Source: a virus. Taken from it: DNA of 25,153 nt. Both the position numbers and the translations under genes were made by a program. Positions within the stretch are counted from its first letter, which is position 1; every line of letters begins with the position of its first letter. The stretch spans positions 1-25,153 of the IMG/VR virus record IMGVR_UViG_3300030098_003157; one strand, 5' to 3'. The notes under the pieces were generated by a model, which was given only the letters and a program-made list of their open reading frames with translations, ran no database searches and had not been told where the DNA came from. Positions 4,016 to 25,153 of this stretch are shown in pieces.

Positions 4016-4426
4016 ATGGAAGCAAGAGAAAGAACCCCAGACGGTTGGGAAATAATATCCGTCAAAGAGCATGTCATTCCAGAGATTAAAGAAGTAATCG
4101 CGGATGGCAAAGAACAGGACAGAGTAGTTGATATTGTCACCGATCTACTTAGTCCAGCGAAAGATGTGGTTGGATGGTATTTTTCAGAGCAGCGATCTGA
4201 TGAAAGAGTAGCAGCGGAAGTAGACGCACTGGAGTATCACGAAATCTACTCGTCTGTTTGGATGAATGATCTCCCCAGTACGGGTTATAACTGTATTGGT
4301 GTTATGGTCGGTGAGTGGAATGAGGATCGTACCGAACGTCAATTCTATGTGGTGTTAAGTATGAATGGTTCGTGGGGTGCGAGCGCTCTATCCGAATACT
4401 TCAGATTCACTGAGTATAGTCAATAA
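4016..4426 (+). CDS. Acidic protein, unknown function (136 aa)
   Basis: Last gene of the third operon. The ATG at 4016 is preferred because GGAGG lies 9 bp upstream (4002-4006). An in-frame ATG at 3980 would give 148 residues and an 8-bp overlap with the previous gene, but has no Shine-Dalgarno site, so the start is not certain. The sequence begins EARERTPDGWEIISVKEHV, continues with helices rich in Asp/Glu, and ends with a more hydrophobic beta-like part (CIGVMVGEWNEDRTERQFYVVLSMNGSW). No known motif. A strong terminator follows 28 bp downstream. Confidence 0.72.
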   Translation: MEARERTPDGWEIISVKEHVIPEIKEVIADGKEQDRVVDIVTDLLSPAKDVVGWYFSEQRSDERVAAEVDALEYHEIYSSVWMNDLPSTGYNCIGVMVGEWNEDRTERQFYVVLSMNGSWGASALSEYFRFTEYSQ

Positions 4427-4438
4427 ATCTCCCCCAAA

Positions 4439-4485
4439 GATCACTCTGTGATCGCCCCCGATTGTCTGACAGTCGGGGGTTTTTT
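4439..4485 (+). terminator. Strong intrinsic terminator closing the small-gene region, with a preceding hairpin
   Basis: CCCCCGATTGTC (from 4455) pairs with GACAGTCGGGGG (ending 4479), a stem of about 11 bp with one G-T pair, followed by six T at 4480-4485. A separate perfect 6-bp hairpin, GATCAC-TCT-GTGATC, lies immediately upstream at 4439-4453. Confidence 0.93.
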
Positions 4486-4531
4486 CGTTATTAAATCTAT
4501 TGGTATTGTTTTTCTGGAAAATAAAAAAGTT

Positions 4532-4551
4532 TTTGAAAAAAGTTTTTCAAA
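4532..4551. repeat. Perfect inverted repeat TTTGAAAAA / TTTTTCAAA
   Basis: Nine-bp arms at 4532-4540 and 4543-4551 separated by AG. The element is AT-rich, has no T-run in the right position for a terminator, and lies in the gene-free gap upstream of terS. It could be an operator. Confidence 0.6.
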
Positions 4552-4647
4552 TGTACTAATATCTCTAATAGAGTAATAGATTCGCTCTACAACCCTCTTG
4601 TTCACTGGGTTCTTTCAAATGTCAAAAGTAATAGATTTTCTATTAGT
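4545..4647. repeat. Direct and inverted repeats upstream of terS
   Basis: TTTCAAATGT occurs at 4545-4554 and 4613-4622. AGTAATAGATT occurs at 4572-4582 and 4627-4637. The second copy extends into a palindrome, TAATAGA-TTT-TCTATTA (4629-4645). Together they occupy most of the gene-free 4486-4742 region, which otherwise holds the T7-like promoter match and a TATAAT box. Repeated operator or replication sites are possible. Confidence 0.55.
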
Positions 4648-4659
4648 TATTAGAAACTA

Positions 4660-4679
4660 TGGTAAGATTCACTAGAGGG
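4660..4679 (+). promoter_or_regulatory. Possible T7-like (single-subunit RNA polymerase) promoter upstream of terS
   Basis: Aligned on the GGG start, bases 4660-4679 match the T7 consensus from -17 to +3 at 15 of 20 positions by eye. The core TTCACTAGAGGG compares with CTCACTATAGGG, and GA at -11/-10 is kept. No RNA polymerase gene is in the window, so a chance match is not excluded. A TATAAT box at 4709-4714 without a good -35 is an alternative promoter for the same gene. Confidence 0.35.
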
Positions 4680-4742
4680 CATGAGAAAAGTATATAAAAT
4701 GAGTATTTTATAATAAGATTGTAATAGCATTTGGAGAACCTT

Positions 4743-5276
4743 ATGAAACAACTGACTTACACAAATTTGGTCCCTGCAGAGGATGGAAATGGCTTCGTTG
4801 ATGAGAACGGTAAGATTTGGAAGCAGCTCAACTCAAAACAAAAGAAATTTTGCCGTGAGTATCTCAAAGGTCAGACCGCTACGCAAGCCGCGATAAAAGC
4901 GGGCTATACCAAGGATCGCAAGGGTGCCAAGACTCAAGGGAGTGTATTACTAAACCATAACCCAGTTGTACGCAATTATTTGATTGAGTTGGAAATGGCA
5001 CTCGCAGAGCGAGATGCAGTTTCCCTGGAGAGCCATTTGTCCACCCTCCACGATCTACGGGAGGAGGCAAGGGACCAAGGACAGGTGTCCGCGGCTATCA
5101 CAGCGGAGGTCCATCGAGGGAAGGCAGGCGGACTGTACATCGACCGACGCGAAATACTGACCGCAAAGATCGATATGATGTCCAAGGACGACATACTCAC
5201 TCGACTCGAGGAGCTGATCAAGAAGCGAGCGACCGAGTCAAACGTGATCGAGGGAGAGTTTGTACCCAAAAACTGA
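4743..5276 (+). CDS. Terminase small subunit (177 aa)
   Basis: TerS recognises phage DNA and recruits the large subunit for packaging. The N-terminal domain has the Terminase_2-type helix-turn-helix pattern: LNSKQKKFCREYLKG (residues 29-43), TATQAAIKAGYT (45-56), then GSVLLNHNPVVRNYL (66-80). Helical oligomerisation segments follow, and a C-terminal EGEFVPKN tail. The ATG at 4743 was chosen because GGAG lies 6 bp upstream; an in-frame TTG at 4731 would only add MENL. The second half of the gene is much more GC-rich (about 58% over 5041-5220 by count) than its first half or most of the window. TerL lies 4.6 kb downstream, not adjacent. Confidence 0.92.
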   Translation: MKQLTYTNLVPAEDGNGFVDENGKIWKQLNSKQKKFCREYLKGQTATQAAIKAGYTKDRKGAKTQGSVLLNHNPVVRNYLIELEMALAERDAVSLESHLSTLHDLREEARDQGQVSAAITAEVHRGKAGGLYIDRREILTAKIDMMSKDDILTRLEELIKKRATESNVIEGEFVPKN

Positions 5277-5328
5277 TTGGATCCAATTGCTCTACTCTAC
5301 TCTACTCCATTCAATTGCATCCAATTGC
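5276..5328. repeat. Palindrome and CAATTGC / CTACTCTA repeats after terS
   Basis: ATTGGATCCAAT at 5276-5287 is a perfect 12-bp palindrome overlapping the terS stop. CAATTGC follows three times (5284, 5312, 5322), interleaved with two overlapping CTACTCTA copies (5292 and 5297). The rest of the 5277-5416 spacer is pyrimidine-rich and then GC-rich, without a credible gene. Confidence 0.6.
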
Positions 5329-5416
5329 TTGAGCCCAATCCCTTGCCCTGACTCTTTCCCTCGCTCTTTCGGTCCGTGGCTCGCGGTCCAGGATCGGCGG
5401 TTCGTGAATTGATTAC

Positions 5417-5450
5417 ACTGCTTTACTTTGCAGCAGTTCTTTAGTACAAT
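5417..5450 (+). promoter_or_regulatory. Promoter P4 for the 5509 gene
   Basis: ACTGCTTTACTT from 5417, with -35 TTTACT at 5422-5427, a 17-bp spacer and -10 TACAAT at 5445-5450. Same design as P1-P3 but without the GGGTAA initiation box. The leader ends in CGGAGAAAGAAATG. Confidence 0.65.
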
Positions 5451-5508
5451 TCTTATATGGTAGCAAAAGGGTTGTTACCAAACCTAGAAAGTAGAAACGG
5501 AGAAAGAA

Positions 5509-5856
5509 ATGAACCAAACTACGAAAAAAGCGGATACAGCTTCAAAAGTATCAAAAATAGATTCGAACTACAAAGCACCGATTGGTCGCAGTAATTCGAG
5601 CAATGCAACTGTTGAATTACTTAGGACGCCAGTCGAGGGTGTCGATAAAGTTCCACCGCAAATGGGGAAAATTATCGAAGCGTTGGTTGCTGCCAAAGGT
5701 AATACACTAACTGTTAGAGAGTTGAGAGGTGAGAACGAATCAGGTCTTAACAGTGCGTTGGATGCAATTGGATTAGAGACAGAGCAAACAGCTTCTAGGA
5801 TCTGGTCTTTCTACCGCAAGCGATTGATTAAAGAAGGTTTCATCAACATTAGTTGA
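5509..5856 (+). CDS. Small basic protein, possible winged-helix DNA-binding domain (115 aa)
   Basis: A single-gene unit between its own promoter (5417) and terminator (5873), with ribosome-binding site CGGAGAAAGAA. The first 45 residues are polar, basic and probably disordered (NQTTKKADTASKVSKIDSNY). The rest, from about residue 50, runs PPQMGKIIEALVAAKG, TLTVRELRGENESG, then LETEQTASRIWSFYRKRLIKEGF. A helix, helix, helix and basic C-terminal segment of this type resembles winged-helix domains, but no family is identified. It could regulate the neighbouring late genes. A moron-like insertion between terS and the holin/terL block is likely from the layout. Confidence 0.78.
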   Translation: MNQTTKKADTASKVSKIDSNYKAPIGRSNSSNATVELLRTPVEGVDKVPPQMGKIIEALVAAKGNTLTVRELRGENESGLNSALDAIGLETEQTASRIWSFYRKRLIKEGFINIS

Positions 5857-5872
5857 TTGAGCCCAATCGCAA

Positions 5873-5904
5873 GGAGTCGATCGAAAGGTCGGCTCCTTTT
5901 TTTT
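5873..5904 (+). terminator. Intrinsic terminator with GAAA tetraloop after the 5509 gene
   Basis: GGAGTCGATC (5873-5882) pairs with GGTCGGCTCC (5887-5896) as a 10-bp stem including G-T pairs, closed by GAAA and followed by eight T (5897-5904). Confidence 0.93.
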
Positions 5905-6082
5905 GCTCTACTCTACTCTATCACTCTACTCTATCCATCACTCTATCGCTCGCTCTATCCCTCGCCCTTTCACTCTATCCCTGACCCACTCACTCTACTC
6001 TATCGGTCTACTCTATCGATCAATCTTTCGTTCCGTGCGTCCGTCGCTCCTTGGATCCTTCCGTCCGTCCCTCCGTCCGTCG
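5905..6082. repeat. Pyrimidine-rich degenerate array of ACTCTA(T/C) and CCGT units
   Basis: Starts directly after the terminator. ACTCTA begins at 5910, 5915, 5923, 5928, 5940, 5972, 5992, 5997 and 6010, with GCTCTA variants at 5905 and 5952. From about 6031 it becomes GC-rich CCGT repeats (CCGTCCGTCCCTCCGTCCGT at 6061-6080). The same ACTCTA word recurs at 5294 and 5299 after terS and at 6614, 6625 and 6675 after the next terminator. Reading frames through it are low-complexity and I do not treat them as genes. Confidence 0.75.
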
Positions 6083-6100
6083 TAAAATCTTACTTGTTAG

Positions 6101-6165
6101 CTTAGTAGCTTAGTAGGTTAATTAGTTAATATATTACTTGACATAGTCAGTCAGTAGTCCATACT
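6101..6165 (+). promoter_or_regulatory. Promoter P5 with upstream tandem repeat, for the 6197 gene
   Basis: A consensus -35 TTGACA at 6138-6143 is followed after 16 bp by CATACT at 6160-6165 as a weak -10. Upstream, CTTAGTAG is tandemly repeated (6101-6108 and 6109-6116) before an AT-rich stretch that could be an UP element or operator. Confidence 0.5.
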
Positions 6166-6196
6166 GGTTACTCAATTAATAATAAAGGAGGACATC

Positions 6197-6556
6197 ATGT
6201 CCAACAATAATACAAAGTCAGCAAAGACTCAAAAAACAGCTAAGCGTACACTCAAGCCTATTAAAGGTAAGATAAACATGGATAAGAATACATTTAGCGT
6301 TGATTCTAACGCGATGGATATCTTATTCAACGCTATGCCTAGTCAGCTACAACAAGCCTTACACAAGGCTGAGATTGCACCTAATAACTCAATCAATATG
6401 AAAGAGTTAAACGATTGGTGGATAGCTGAATTTGTTGATACGGGTATCTATACTCAAGACTTTTACACAGTCATCAACCATTACAGGGCTAGGTTTACTA
6501 AAACTTATAAAGGTTTTAAGCCTGAGGAATTGGCTACCTTATTTACTATAAGTTAA
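6197..6556 (+). CDS. Small protein with basic N-terminus, unknown function (119 aa)
   Basis: A second single-gene unit, with ribosome-binding site AAAGGAGGACATC before ATG and its own terminator 21 bp after the stop. The first 35 residues are Lys/Thr/Asn-rich and probably disordered (SNNNTKSAKTQKTAKRTLK). The remainder is helical: NAMDILFNAMPSQLQQALHKAEI, then MKELNDWWIAEFVDTGI, and YTVINHYRARFTKTYKGF. It has the same plan as the 5509 product (basic tail plus small helical domain, about 115 residues) but no obvious sequence similarity. No family recognised; nucleic-acid binding is plausible from the charge. Confidence 0.78.
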   Translation: MSNNNTKSAKTQKTAKRTLKPIKGKINMDKNTFSVDSNAMDILFNAMPSQLQQALHKAEIAPNNSINMKELNDWWIAEFVDTGIYTQDFYTVINHYRARFTKTYKGFKPEELATLFTIS

Positions 6557-6577
6557 CCATCAACTATAACTACAACG

Positions 6578-6606
6578 GGGCTAGGCTAATAACCTAGCCC
6601 TTTTTT
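6578..6606 (+). terminator. Intrinsic terminator after the 6197 gene
   Basis: GGGCTAGG (6578-6585), loop CTAATAA, CCTAGCCC (6593-6600), then six T (6601-6606). A perfect 8-bp stem. Confidence 0.94.
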
Positions 6607-6817
6607 CATGTCTACTCTATATCTACTCTATCCCTTAAACCTAGTCATTTAACCTCTAATCAATTCCTAACCCTACTCTATACCTTACCCCTAAGTAAAG
6701 TAGTAATGACCCCTATACCCCCTAAAACTGCGCTAGGCGCGGGTCCCACCCGCCCGACCTGGACCCAGACTCTTGGTTGCATGTATTTTTCAAATGGGAC
6801 TCCTACCGAAAAAATAT
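6607..6817. other. Non-coding spacer with ACTCTA copies and a GC-rich hairpin block
   Basis: ACTCTA occurs at 6614, 6625 and 6675. After an AT/pyrimidine-rich stretch the sequence becomes GC-rich at 6730-6765: GCGC-TAG-GCGC (6730-6740) and a perfect hairpin GCGGGT-CCC-ACCCGC (6739-6753). No T-run follows, so it is not a terminator. A packaging or recombination site is possible. No gene seen; in-frame codons from 6777 lack a ribosome-binding site. Confidence 0.5.
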
Positions 6818-6846
6818 TTTGCAAAAAAATTTTTTGAGATTATACT
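6818..6846 (+). promoter_or_regulatory. Promoter P6 for the packaging/head operon
   Basis: TTTGCA at 6818-6823, 17-bp spacer, TATACT at 6841-6846. It sits 32 bp before the chosen start at 6879 and downstream of the GC-rich block. Confidence 0.6.
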
Positions 6847-6878
6847 TTACAGATGAAACATGTTCTATGGAGCAGGAA

Positions 6879-7763
6879 ATGCCGTTAAAGTCAGGTTCGT
6901 CCAATAAAACCGTTTCCTCGAACATTTCCAAACTAAGAGGAGAAGGCTACCCACAAGACCAAGCGATAGCTATTGCTCTTTCCAATGCTCAGAAAAAGTC
7001 TAATGGCGGCGAGATTGACCGCTTAGATGAAATTTATGTTGACGATGATGTAGATGAGATTATTCTTTCTCGGCAACCGATTCAGTGGGACTATGAGAAG
7101 ATGAAAAAATATATGAATGAAGCGAGATTGTTAGACCAGCCTCCAGAAACTGTTTTCTATCGAGCGTATAAAGACAATGACCTTTCTGAAGATGAATATT
7201 TTCAATTTAAATATAAAGCAGAACAACTTCAAGAGTTAAAGGATCAAAGGGATGAAGAGCGCGAAAAACAAAGAATACGTGACTGGGCTGAAGGTAAAGT
7301 GGATGATCCAATTTTTTTAGAAAAAGGGGGCGAGATTGACCGCTTAGATGAGATCGACTCAGAAACATTTGATATGCCGACTGAGGACCCTGGATTACAG
7401 GAAGTCGATTTTATTTCTTGGCTCTTTCCAGAATTAAAATTACTTAAAGGTATTCCCGCCGCATTAGGCTTGGTCACCAAACCATGGACCAAGTACACTC
7501 GTAAGAAATTCACTAAAGCAGGAAACCCTAGTCAACGAACAACGGACGGTTCTCGACTTTCCGCTCCTAAGAAACAGCCCATGCTAGATTTTTTCAAAGA
7601 AACTGAGGGAGGATCTAATTTGTCGGGATTAACTCCGAAAACTCTCGAAGCGGTTAAAGCAAATTTAAAAGCGTATGAAGCAGCTGCTTCTCGTACATCA
7701 CAATCAGATAAACAAGGGATTAATTATATGTTACAAATTCTTCGCGATATCGGTGAAATTTAA
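6879..7763 (+). CDS. Acidic protein of unknown function, MPLK-type N-terminus (294 aa)
   Basis: The start at 6879 is chosen over 6777 and 6867: GGAG lies 6 bp upstream and the protein then opens MPLKSGSSNKTVSSNI, with REGYPxxQA(I/V)AIALS-like residues near 30, an opening I associate with phage proteins of unknown function. The middle is highly charged and helical (residues about 75-150). A GGEIDRLDEI motif occurs twice, encoded by identical 23-bp repeats at 7008-7030 and 7329-7351. A hydrophobic glycine/proline stretch (FPELKLLKGIPAALGLV) precedes a basic C-terminal third. Its location before the holin-like gene and terL suggests a late role, perhaps virion-internal. Function unknown. The stop overlaps the next ATG by one base. 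Confidence 0.8.
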   Translation: MPLKSGSSNKTVSSNISKLRGEGYPQDQAIAIALSNAQKKSNGGEIDRLDEIYVDDDVDEIILSRQPIQWDYEKMKKYMNEARLLDQPPETVFYRAYKDNDLSEDEYFQFKYKAEQLQELKDQRDEEREKQRIRDWAEGKVDDPIFLEKGGEIDRLDEIDSETFDMPTEDPGLQEVDFISWLFPELKLLKGIPAALGLVTKPWTKYTRKKFTKAGNPSQRTTDGSRLSAPKKQPMLDFFKETEGGSNLSGLTPKTLEAVKANLKAYEAAASRTSQSDKQGINYMLQILRDIGEI

Positions 7764-21753: not shown

Positions 21754-22584
21754 ATGTCTGGTTGGGGTCGGTCCACATGGGGCACTGGTCCTTGGGGTGA
21801 ACCTGCAATCGTTAGTGTTACAGTTAATGTAACAGGCGTTGCGGGAACAACTGCACTAGGAACAGAAACCGTTAGTTGTGATGCTAATGTCGCAGAGACA
21901 GGTGTTGCAGCTACAGGTGCTGTCGGTAGTTTAACTGTAACAGGTGTTGCAAATGTTACGGAAACAGGTGTAGCTGGAACAAGTGCACTAGGATCGTTAA
22001 GTATATCCGCTGATGCGAATGTAAGCGAAACAGGAGTTGCTGGCACAGGAGCAGTAAATAGTTTAACTGTTACAGGTATAGCTAATCTTTCTGTAACAGG
22101 AGTTGCTGGTACTAGTGCTTTAGGCACAGAATCAGTTAGCGGTGATGCCAATATCAGTGAAACAGGAGTAGCTGGTACTGGTGCAGTAGGTACAGTTGTT
22201 GCAAATGGTGTAGCGATTGTAGGTGTTAGTGGTGCTGCCTCAACGATATCACAAGGCGATGAAACAGTTACTTGTGACGCGAATGTTTATCCGACAGGAA
22301 TAGCTGCTACAAGTGCGTTAGGCACAATTAGCACTGTCAGTACTAATGTTATTTCAATAACAGGACTTGCTGGAACAGGACAAATTGGCGATCTTACTCC
22401 TCAAGCAAGTGCAGGAGTTTCGATTACAGGAGTTAGCGCAACAGGAGCAGTTAGTCAATTACAGGTTTGGGGAAGAATTGTTCCTTCGCAAACGCCAAAT
22501 TATACAGAAGTAACGGAAACTCAAGATCCAAGTTGGACAGAAGTAACGGAAACTCAAGATCCAGGATGGAAGGAAGTTGCTTAA
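21754..22584 (+). CDS. Tail-associated protein with ten 22-residue repeats (276 aa)
   Basis: The N-terminus SGWGRSTWGTGPWGEPA carries a W-G-x-G-x-W-G signature I associate with phage tail proteins. Residues about 25-245 are ten tandem 22-residue repeats with core TG(V/I/L)AGT-x-A-(L/V)-G. Two types alternate: odd units contain TSALG and end near DAN, even units contain TGAVG and end near TGVAN, giving a 44-residue super-repeat. All are Thr/Val/Ala/Gly-rich and beta-like, suggesting a fibrous stalk. The C-terminus has an 11-residue repeat (YTEVTETQDPS, WTEVTETQDPG, WKEVA). A virion fibre or adhesin role is inferred. No clear Shine-Dalgarno site. Confidence 0.75.
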   Translation: MSGWGRSTWGTGPWGEPAIVSVTVNVTGVAGTTALGTETVSCDANVAETGVAATGAVGSLTVTGVANVTETGVAGTSALGSLSISADANVSETGVAGTGAVNSLTVTGIANLSVTGVAGTSALGTESVSGDANISETGVAGTGAVGTVVANGVAIVGVSGAASTISQGDETVTCDANVYPTGIAATSALGTISTVSTNVISITGLAGTGQIGDLTPQASAGVSITGVSATGAVSQLQVWGRIVPSQTPNYTEVTETQDPSWTEVTETQDPGWKEVA

Positions 22585-22608
22585 TTTTTATAAAAAATGC
22601 GCTATAAT
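22581..22608 (+). promoter_or_regulatory. Promoter candidate for the tail fibre gene
   Basis: TATAAT at 22603-22608 with a weak -35 TTAATT at 22581-22586 (16-bp spacer), in the 44-bp gap before the fibre ATG. The ribosome-binding site is TTGGAGACAGAAT. Confidence 0.4.
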
Positions 22609-22628
22609 CAATAAATTGGAGACAGAAT

Positions 22629-25153
22629 ATGGCAACTTATGTAAATGATTTAAGATTAAAAGAAATCGCTACGGGCGATGAATCGGGAACGTGGGGGACA
22701 AGTACCAACACGAATCTCGAGTTAATTGCGGAAGCATGGGGTTCTGGCTCAGAAGCCATTACAGGAACTTCGCACACAATTACAATGGCGGATGGTGCTG
22801 CCGATGCAGCGAGAGCCTTTGCTCTAACGCTGACAGGATCAATTACCGCAACCAATACAGTTACTCTTGCACCGAACACAGTCAGTAAAACTTGGGTAAT
22901 TCAAAACAACGCTGGTTATCAAGTAACGATATCTCAAGGCACAGGCGCAAATGTCGTGATTCCGAATGGCGGAATCAAGATGCTTGTTACCGATGGTGCT
23001 GGAGCAGGCGCAGCAGTAACTGATGTCCTCGATATGACAGGCGGTACAGGCAATGTCGGACTAGGTTCTGGCTCACTTGGTACAGCAATTACGACAGGAA
23101 CGGATAACGTAGCCATAGGTGAAGCTGCACTTGATGCAGTCACGACTGGATCGGATAACACGGCAGTGGGAGACAATGCTGGTGGAGGAATTACAACAGG
23201 AAGTCAAAATGTTGCTGTTGGCTCTGCTTCAGGACTTGCTTTAACTACAGGCGACCAGAATGTAATTGTAGGAGAACAAGCTGGAGAAGGGTTAACCACA
23301 GCATCAGCAGTTACTTTAGTAGGTTGTGAAGCTGGAGGTGGCGCAACAATAACAGGCGACCACAATGTAGGTGTAGGTAGAAAAGCACTTTTTGATTTGA
23401 CAACAGGCGCATCTAATGTTGCGGTGGGTAGAAGTGCTTTAGAAAATGTTACAACGGCAGATAACAACACAGCAGTCGGAAAAGATGCTTTAAAAACAAA
23501 TACCACAGGACATTCAAACACAGGAGTTGGTGAAAGTGCTTTAGAAGCAAACACTACAGCAAATAACAACACAGGAGTAGGTTATGCTGCTCTAGCCGCA
23601 AACACCACAGGACATTCAAATGTAGCCGTTGGTTCTTTAGCATTGGATGCCAATACAACTGCGAATAACAACACTGCAATTGGTTATGAGTCTTTAACAA
23701 CAAATACTACAGGCACAGCAAATACTGGTGTGGGTCGTACTTCACTAAATGCAAATAGCACAGGCAGTAACAATACCTCAGTGGGAATGGGATCACTAGA
23801 GTCTAATACCACTGCAGATAGCAACACAGCAGTTGGTAAAGATGCTTTACAGTCAAACACCACAGGAACAGAGAACGTGGCGGTTGGAGCAACAGCTGGT
23901 GATGCTTTAACCACAGGTTCAGAAAATGTAGTCATTGGTTCTGATGCTTTATCAACATCTACTACAGGTGGAAATAATGTTGCAATAGGTCGTATGGCTT
24001 TAAAGGTGAACACAGCTGCTGGTAATACTGCCGTTGGACACCAAAGCATGATTTCCAACACGACTGGTGCAAGTAATGTTGCTGTTGGTAAAAATGCTTT
24101 AGACTCTAATACCACAGCATCAAACAATGTAGCTGTTGGATACGATGCTTTACAAGCAAACACCACAGGTGCGCATTTAACAGCAGTTGGTAAAGATGCG
24201 TTAGCAGCAAATACGACAGGGGATAACAACATTGGCATTGGTCGTGATGCTGGACAATCAATTACAGAAGGCTCTAATAACATTGCGATAGGTGTTGAGG
24301 CTTTAGAAAACTTAACTACAGCTAATATGAATCTGGCTATTGGTAAAGGTGCTGGTGCTGCAAATACAAGTGGAACTGAAAATGTATTTATAGGACACGA
24401 AGCTGGTAACGATGTAACCACTGGTGCTGGACACACACTTATTGGTTTTAAAGCTGGAGACAAAATTACAACCGCTTCTCAAAACACGGCAGTGGGAGAT
24501 GAAGCATTAGGTGCAAATACAGGTGGTGGTTTAAATACTGCCATTGGTTATAACGCAATGCTTGGAAACACAACTGGTGGTGATTGTACTGCGGTTGGCG
24601 CAAGAGCATTAGATGCAGCAAATGCAGCCGATGGTAATACTGCGGTGGGTTCAGCAGCACTAGGAGCAAACACAACTGGCGCACAAAACACAGCAGTAGG
24701 TACTTATGCTTTGGATGCAAACACAACAACACATTACAGCACAGCTTTTGGGTACGATTCTTTGACTGCTTGTACTTCGGCAGCAAATACTGGTTTAGGT
24801 GCTTATGCTGGAACAGCAATTACAACTGGCGATGGAAACACTTGTGTTGGATTTGAAGCGGGAGATGCGATCAGTACAGGCACAGACAATACCATGATTG
24901 GTAAAAGAGCTGGTGATGACCAAACTACAGGGAATGGTAATGTAGTAGTGGGGTCAGTTGCAGATACAGGAACAGGTGGTGCTACTGGTCGTGTAGTTCT
25001 TGGTTCAGCAATTGATGGTACAGGAGATGCAAGATGTACGATTGGTTATAATACCAATGTTGTCGAAATCGATTTGAATGGTTCAGATGAATCTTGGGCA
25101 GCATCTTCGGATGAAAGGCTAAAAGAAAACGTACAAGATGCGACAGTAGGACT
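22629..25153 (+). CDS. Tail fibre with YadA-like repeats and a truncated S74 chaperone domain
   Basis: A single open frame from the ATG at 22629 (after GGAGACAGAAT) to the window end, at least 841 codons. The N-terminus (ATYVNDLRLKEIATGDESG, then WGTSTNTNLELIAEAWG) is of a type I have seen in marine phage fibres. A beta-rich domain to about residue 130 is followed by nearly 40 repeats of N-x-x-(V/I)-G-x-x-(A/S)-(L/G), mostly 17 residues apart with NTTG between, like the left-handed beta-roll of YadA head domains. The reading ends in SDERLKENV, the start of an S74 intramolecular chaperone, which trimerises the fibre and then cleaves itself off in characterised fibres. A host-receptor-binding role is likely. 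Confidence 0.92.
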   Translation, partial: MATYVNDLRLKEIATGDESGTWGTSTNTNLELIAEAWGSGSEAITGTSHTITMADGAADAARAFALTLTGSITATNTVTLAPNTVSKTWVIQNNAGYQVTISQGTGANVVIPNGGIKMLVTDGAGAGAAVTDVLDMTGGTGNVGLGSGSLGTAITTGTDNVAIGEAALDAVTTGSDNTAVGDNAGGGITTGSQNVAVGSASGLALTTGDQNVIVGEQAGEGLTTASAVTLVGCEAGGGATITGDHNVGVGRKALFDLTTGASNVAVGRSALENVTTADNNTAVGKDALKTNTTGHSNTGVGESALEANTTANNNTGVGYAALAANTTGHSNVAVGSLALDANTTANNNTAIGYESLTTNTTGTANTGVGRTSLNANSTGSNNTSVGMGSLESNTTADSNTAVGKDALQSNTTGTENVAVGATAGDALTTGSENVVIGSDALSTSTTGGNNVAIGRMALKVNTAAGNTAVGHQSMISNTTGASNVAVGKNALDSNTTASNNVAVGYDALQANTTGAHLTAVGKDALAANTTGDNNIGIGRDAGQSITEGSNNIAIGVEALENLTTANMNLAIGKGAGAANTSGTENVFIGHEAGNDVTTGAGHTLIGFKAGDKITTASQNTAVGDEALGANTGGGLNTAIGYNAMLGNTTGGDCTAVGARALDAANAADGNTAVGSAALGANTTGAQNTAVGTYALDANTTTHYSTAFGYDSLTACTSAANTGLGAYAGTAITTGDGNTCVGFEAGDAISTGTDNTMIGKRAGDDQTTGNGNVVVGSVADTGTGGATGRVVLGSAIDGTGDARCTIGYNTNVVEIDLNGSDESWAASSDERLKENVQDATVG
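23050..24960 (+). repeat. Degenerate 51-bp tandem repeats in the fibre gene
   Basis: Codons for N-x-A-(V/I)-G...A-L...N-T-T recur about every 51 bp (17 codons) across nearly 2 kb, with diverged copies. Fully in frame, no stops. Repeats with alternating spacers (TTGHS, TTANN) appear around 23450-23680. Confidence 0.85.

Follow-up and report, generated by a model that had tools for sequence, protein, structure and literature searches.

Arrays of a short repeat are kept at the same place, on one strand, after the small terminase gene (terS) in nearly all the close phage relatives examined, and their likeliest role is to mark the place where genome packaging starts, with a transcription-stop signal as a serious rival. 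The window, meaning the whole stretch of 25,153 nucleotides that was analysed, covers nearly all of a 26.4-kb virus record. Judging from its predicted proteins, it is an uncultured phage akin to the HTVC023P-type pelagiphages: TerL shares 58% identity with that of phage 023Pt_psg01 and 54% with that of pelagiphage HTVC027P, both members or neighbours of the HTVC023P-type group, and psg01 also has a head protein 74% identical to that of the window. Genomes of this type have been recovered as circles (PMC9599517). As a route to the host, bacterial genomes were searched for contigs with this TerL, and none was found. The predicted TerS scores 55 bits against PF03592 (Pfam cut-off 26.1) and its profile matches solved SF6 TerS structures (3zqp, E 7.7e-9; 4zc3, E 4e-8; 2cmp was also matched), and on these two grounds it is assigned by homology to the SPP1/SF6 type of small terminase.

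The features of the locus are listed in Table 1. As the sequence-only reading had claimed, the word ACTCTA is found 14 times on the + strand, and never on the − strand, in three non-coding spacers after terS (starts at 5294, 5299, 5910, 5915, 5923, 5928, 5940, 5972, 5992, 5997, 6010, 6614, 6625 and 6675); dinucleotide-shuffled spacers held 0.66 copies on average and 4 at most, and 14 was reached in 0 of 2000 shuffles. The unit is better written as CTCTA/CTCTATCR, that is, as the 13-mer CTCTACTCTATCR. Successive CTCTA words are joined head to tail 354 times, via TCG 63 times, via TCA 51 times and via TCC or TCT three times; the last position of the TCR linker is a purine in 114 cases vs a pyrimidine in 3, and repeat spacing peaks at 5, 8, 13, 18 and 26. 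Placement just after a terminator applies to arrays 2 and 3, whereas array 1 comes after the stop codon of terS and has no intrinsic terminator ahead of it. The two exact copies of TTGAGCCCAATC reported around the gene at 5509 were recovered. This 12-mer is not a clean insertion duplication, because its second copy is part of the cassette and its first is also present in a cassette-free relative (L008). Immediately after the terS stop codon, the window (5277-5288) and some close relatives carry a small palindrome (TTGGATCCAA, TTGGTACCAA, TTGAGCTCAA), the symmetry of which is preserved in some variants.

Table 1. Features at and downstream of terS (positions in the window)
Feature	Position	Strand	Remarks
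terS, small terminase subunit	4743..5276	+	PF03592, PHROG 51
Array 1	5290..5307	+	CTCTA x3.6; starts 13 nt past terS stop codon
TTGAGCCCAATC, first copy	5329..5340	+	
Moron-like cassette (promoter, gene, terminator)	5415..5905 (approximate limits)	+	Absent from L008
Promoter-like site of 5509 gene	5422..5450	+	Consensus match only
F2-family gene, 115 aa	5509..5856	+	Fold prediction of low to medium confidence; at best resembles a winged helix
TTGAGCCCAATC, second copy	5857..5868	+	Abuts stop codon of 5509 gene, within cassette
Intrinsic terminator of 5509 gene	5871..5898	+	
Array 2	5905..6015	+	9 ACTCTA (11 CTCTA); top C-over-G 80-nt stretch on + strand
Promoter-like site of 6197 gene	6138..6165	+	10/12, consensus match only
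F0-family gene, 119 aa	6197..6556	+	Distant F2 relative
Intrinsic terminator of 6197 gene	6577..6601	+	
Array 3	6613..6680	+	3 ACTCTA (4 CTCTA)
Conserved non-coding block	6697..6876	+	C-rich GGGTCCCACCCGCCC, TTGCATGTA element, A/T-tract promoter that ends near next ATG; all in one block

A search with TerS yielded 80 loci, and among the 74 that extend at least 300 nt past terS, CTCTACTCTA lies within 1.2 kb after the gene in 72. The earlier proposal to look for the repeat in relatives was borne out: TCTACTCTA is present within 800 nt past terS, on the terS strand, in 33 of 33 distinct relatives, and on the opposite strand in none. These clade-A relatives, found via TerS or TerL and not via the array, are counted with near-copies removed, and such non-redundant locus counts depend on the k-mer threshold chosen; all array-bearing relatives are metagenomic contigs, mostly fragments. 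The array is kept down to 65% TerS identity.

The array also appears to be confined to this locus. Scanning 2.9 million viral contigs for the array pattern returned 63 stretches, nearly all accompanied by this terS; the remainder consist of contig edges or of incomplete contigs bearing other genes of the locus, except for one short contig start (L095) on which nothing was recognised. Across 17 larger contigs, ten of them of 51-84 kb, CTCTACTCTA is placed almost exclusively beside terS and always on its strand, and no non-coding array was seen away from the terS locus in these contigs, which are near-complete, none being certified complete. A general genome-wide repeat was rejected, since each of the stray copies examined (seven from the 17 larger contigs, two from a clade-B contig) is an isolated word within an ORF.

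The order of the locus is terS, array, an optional F2 gene, array, an F0 or F2 gene, sometimes a third array, the conserved non-coding block and the next operon. In L008, whose TerS is 99% identical to that of the window, the 5509 cassette is missing and arrays 1 and 2 are joined, which shows that cassettes come and go at the array. The suggestion that the repeats mediate gene insertion can thus be retained as far as insertion goes, given this cassette-free site and the variable cassette genes, while the repeats themselves are candidate mediators. Of the clade-A arrays, none of the 45 next to terS is preceded by an intrinsic terminator, and nearly all of these begin 0-28 nt past the stop codon; those behind a cassette gene come after its intrinsic terminator in 28 of 29 cases. 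F2 and F0 are remotely related (hhalign probability 95%). Their structure models, of medium confidence (pLDDT 75 for F2 and 80 for F0), match winged-helix folds weakly, the matches of F2 including PerR (Z 5.9) and linker histone (Z 5.1); no Foldseek match was significant, and VIA gave Z <=6.5. The two appear to belong to a single, fast-diverging family of small proteins, basic and disordered at the N-terminus, which is present at the locus in nearly every relative and whose members could be anti-defence or DNA-binding proteins.

The reading that we favour, tentatively and at somewhat less than even chance, is that the array is a pac-type packaging-start region for a TerS of the SPP1/SF6 type. 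It would be a DNA element within the site where a TerS ring binds and loads onto replicated phage DNA; cleavage would start there, and packaging by TerL would begin at or near it and proceed by the headful. With repeats of 5, 8 and 13 bp, a multi-subunit ring would find many equivalent contacts, copies could be gained or lost without harm and the region would have a direction. The promoter-gene-terminator cassettes of F2 and F0, inserted beside or inside the array, would have split it into two or three blocks. The array lies beside terS and at a single locus in each of the near-complete contigs, none of them certified complete. The pac of SPP1 likewise adjoins terS and has direct repeats, the pac repeats differ between SPP1 and SF6, and the SF6 DNA-binding domain shows little sequence preference (PMC4737164); the SPP1 TerS ring is thought to wrap bent DNA (PMC4856287). 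By analogy, an array of many equivalent short units by terS fits such a ring. One may go further and suppose that a slipping, strand-oriented array of 13-bp units after the terS stop codon is read by the TerS ring through repetition, as a hitherto undescribed kind of packaging start. Such an array would need no single base-specific site and would work despite changes in copy number and the insertion of accessory genes, an extension that we regard as doubtful.

Contig ends speak against a fixed cut within the array. Most contigs run through it, and those that end nearby do so at scattered positions, 2-247 nt past terS; moreover, the two ends of the 61.6-kb contig G022 overlap by 100 bp (99% identity), closing it to a circle with the array internal, a closure that bears on clade B only. 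Since contigs cross the array and G022 closes with the array inside, there is no obligatory fixed end there, and a cos site (a fixed cohesive end) was rejected. GC-skew extremes fall at contig ends and are uninformative on the origin. Separately, positions 21824-23620 of the window, which may belong to tail-fibre genes, hold degenerate tandem repeats (132, 51 and 33 nt), and the contig of at least one near-complete relative (G001) ends within similar repeats.

Past the array lies the conserved block, which in 25 aligned relatives reads CCCCTATACCCCC, GGGTCCCACCCGCCC, TTGCATGTA, AAAATTTTGCGAAAAAATTTTT, TATACTTT and, a few bases later, ATG. The TATACTTT-ATG end looks like a promoter for a leaderless transcript, and GGGTCCCACCCGCCC is G-quadruplex-like on the − strand. 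At GGGTCCCACCCGCCCGCCCC within the C-rich block contigs break from both sides (L064, L069, L073/L194, L105, L172, L175, L178, L179 and L244), and sample 3300020419 contains two contigs, one ending and one starting at this sequence. This sharp pile-up of ends directly after GCCCC resembles a physical end, and the breaks may reflect one. They are, however, probably due to sequencing drop-out at a G-quadruplex, because L073/L194 is a scaffold gap with sequence on either side, many contigs cross the block and L201 breaks at a second C-rich copy.

One point against the packaging-start reading comes from a second TerS clade, clade B, about 65% identical to the TerS of the window in the last scan. 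The array stands at the same place in 16 of 35 distinct clade-B loci and is absent from the remainder, where no array is found anywhere along contigs of 40-52 kb. The array-less loci form one clade (support 86/99; a single change in 85% of bootstrap trees, the bootstrap being not fully settled), which by its position in the tree has lost the array; under the packaging-start reading, the repeat would there have been replaced. The TerS of this clade has a longer C-terminus, encoded by DNA with GATCGA repeats, behind which comes a C-rich CCCACCC stretch. In L273-L311, the GATCGA-encoded C-terminal extension looks as if a repeat array had been absorbed into the reading frame. The segment of the TerS recognition helix reads RKGAKTQ in clade A, RNAAKRQ in array-bearing clade B and RNAAKRQ or RAAAKRQ in the array-less loci, so that clade A and array-bearing clade B differ more than array-bearing and array-less clade B do. 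The array therefore does not track the TerS helix, and a simple readout of the repeat by this helix is not supported. Accordingly, the suggestion of TerS/pac sites made from the sequence alone fares unevenly: arrays at the same place in relatives and a TerS of the SPP1/SF6 family speak for it, and a monophyletic subclade without array, yet with a near-identical helix-turn-helix, speaks against it. The missing covariation is less damaging because the SF6 DNA-binding domain lacks sequence specificity. Two further points count against packaging: the predicted curvature of the arrays is ordinary, no intrinsic bend being seen in a wedge model (a weak test), and the arrays, lying at transcript ends, are strongly richer in C than in G.

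The latter property makes a Rho-dependent terminator the main and serious rival, since no other stretch of the + strand exceeds G in C as strongly as the arrays do. The arrays would then be Rho utilisation (rut) sites that stop transcription between terS and the downstream units, which we consider possible but on balance unlikely. Sites of this kind have been described as C-over-G bubbles (PMC9160355). The arrays are indeed C-rich, G-poor stretches of unstructured RNA at transcript ends, following either the stop codon of terS or a cassette's intrinsic terminator, as the clade-A counts given above attest. They hold the top three C-minus-G 80-nt windows of the + strand (33, 27 and 24; the next is 16), the array tops the + strand in this respect in three near-complete genomes, and a weaker C-over-G stretch persists in the array-less clade (median 20 vs 30). 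However, non-coding arrays are seen nowhere else in the genome, though other transcription units end elsewhere, and the exact word and the purine of the TCR linker exceed the needs of mere C-richness. In addition, the linkers contain 13% G, and in many relatives terS runs directly into F2 with no array between.

Alternatively, the array may be a fast-slipping repeat spacer without function of its own, merely permissive for cassette insertion. Copy number is 7, 8 and 9 in L077, L079 and L078, respectively, despite near-identical flanks, the same spacer contains other, lineage-specific simple repeats, cassettes come and go, and one clade has apparently lost the array. This explanation is nevertheless improbable: the word, its strand and its place are the same in all 33 relatives and on both sides of the clade A/B split, whereas the neighbouring simple repeats turn over. 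Still less credible is an operator or enhancer array for another protein, such as the F2 or F0 cassette proteins, acting on a promoter about 200 nt downstream. Most arrays do have an F2, F0 or F1 start about 170-250 nt downstream, and the winged-helix matches of F2 would suit such a role, but F0 genes occur in array-less genomes, arrays without F0 or F2 exist, and the structure matches are below the level of kinship. Finally, the structured non-coding RNA suggested earlier, which would account for the one-strand bias and the non-coding position, is very improbable and finds no support, as folding of the arrays is no better than that of shuffled sequence (z −0.8, −0.1 and +0.9) and no Rfam family reaches gathering score within 4300-7000.

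How small terminases select viral DNA is debated, with ring wrapping, a central channel, bent DNA and sequence all under discussion. In the literature, we found no description of CTCTA arrays with a phage terminase, nor of where packaging begins in the uncultured marine relatives of HTVC023P-type pelagiphages, a place that the array would mark if it is a pac region. Should it be a Rho site instead, it would be an unusually regular, lineage-wide one. The many natural array variants, the wide range of copy number and the one array-less clade make this phage family a ready comparison set.

Several known systems invite comparison. Phage T7 carries very short imperfect direct repeats (CCTAAAG arrays) beside its terminal repeats, near the packaging ends. 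The present arrays are likewise very short direct repeats; the difference is that T7 uses another terminase and its ends are fixed, whereas the array here showed no fixed end. Morons are autonomous promoter-gene-terminator cassettes in phages, and the F2 and F0 genes resemble them in having their own promoter-like site and terminator, the 5509 cassette being cleanly present or absent; they differ in forming one fast-diverging family sited at a repeat array. With rut sites the arrays share a C-rich, G-poor, unstructured and untranslated sequence at the end of a transcription unit (PMC9160355), and they differ from them by an exact repeated word with a conserved purine at one genome locus only. 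Among the closer phages, HTVC023P has 33-nt direct repeats of its own (CAAATCTTGAGAATACATACCGAAAATTTTTTG), of which three come immediately behind terS and two occupy a later spacer ahead of terL (L152, 3161-3259 and 5618-5764), and 023Pt_psg01 has five 31-nt repeats around GGGCCCACCC in the terS-terL spacers (L153, 5434-7872), which resemble the C-rich block of the window's group. The packaging-start reading finds its nearest counterpart in the pac regions of SPP1 and SF6, which are likewise direct-repeat regions at terS, go with a PF03592-type TerS and have repeats that differ between related phages. In contrast to SPP1, where pac lies at the promoter and start of terS and pacL is intrinsically bent (PMC4856287), the array follows the terS stop codon and has ordinary predicted curvature; its units, 5, 8 and 13 bp long and present in many copies, also set it apart from both phages, and its binding by TerS is putative.
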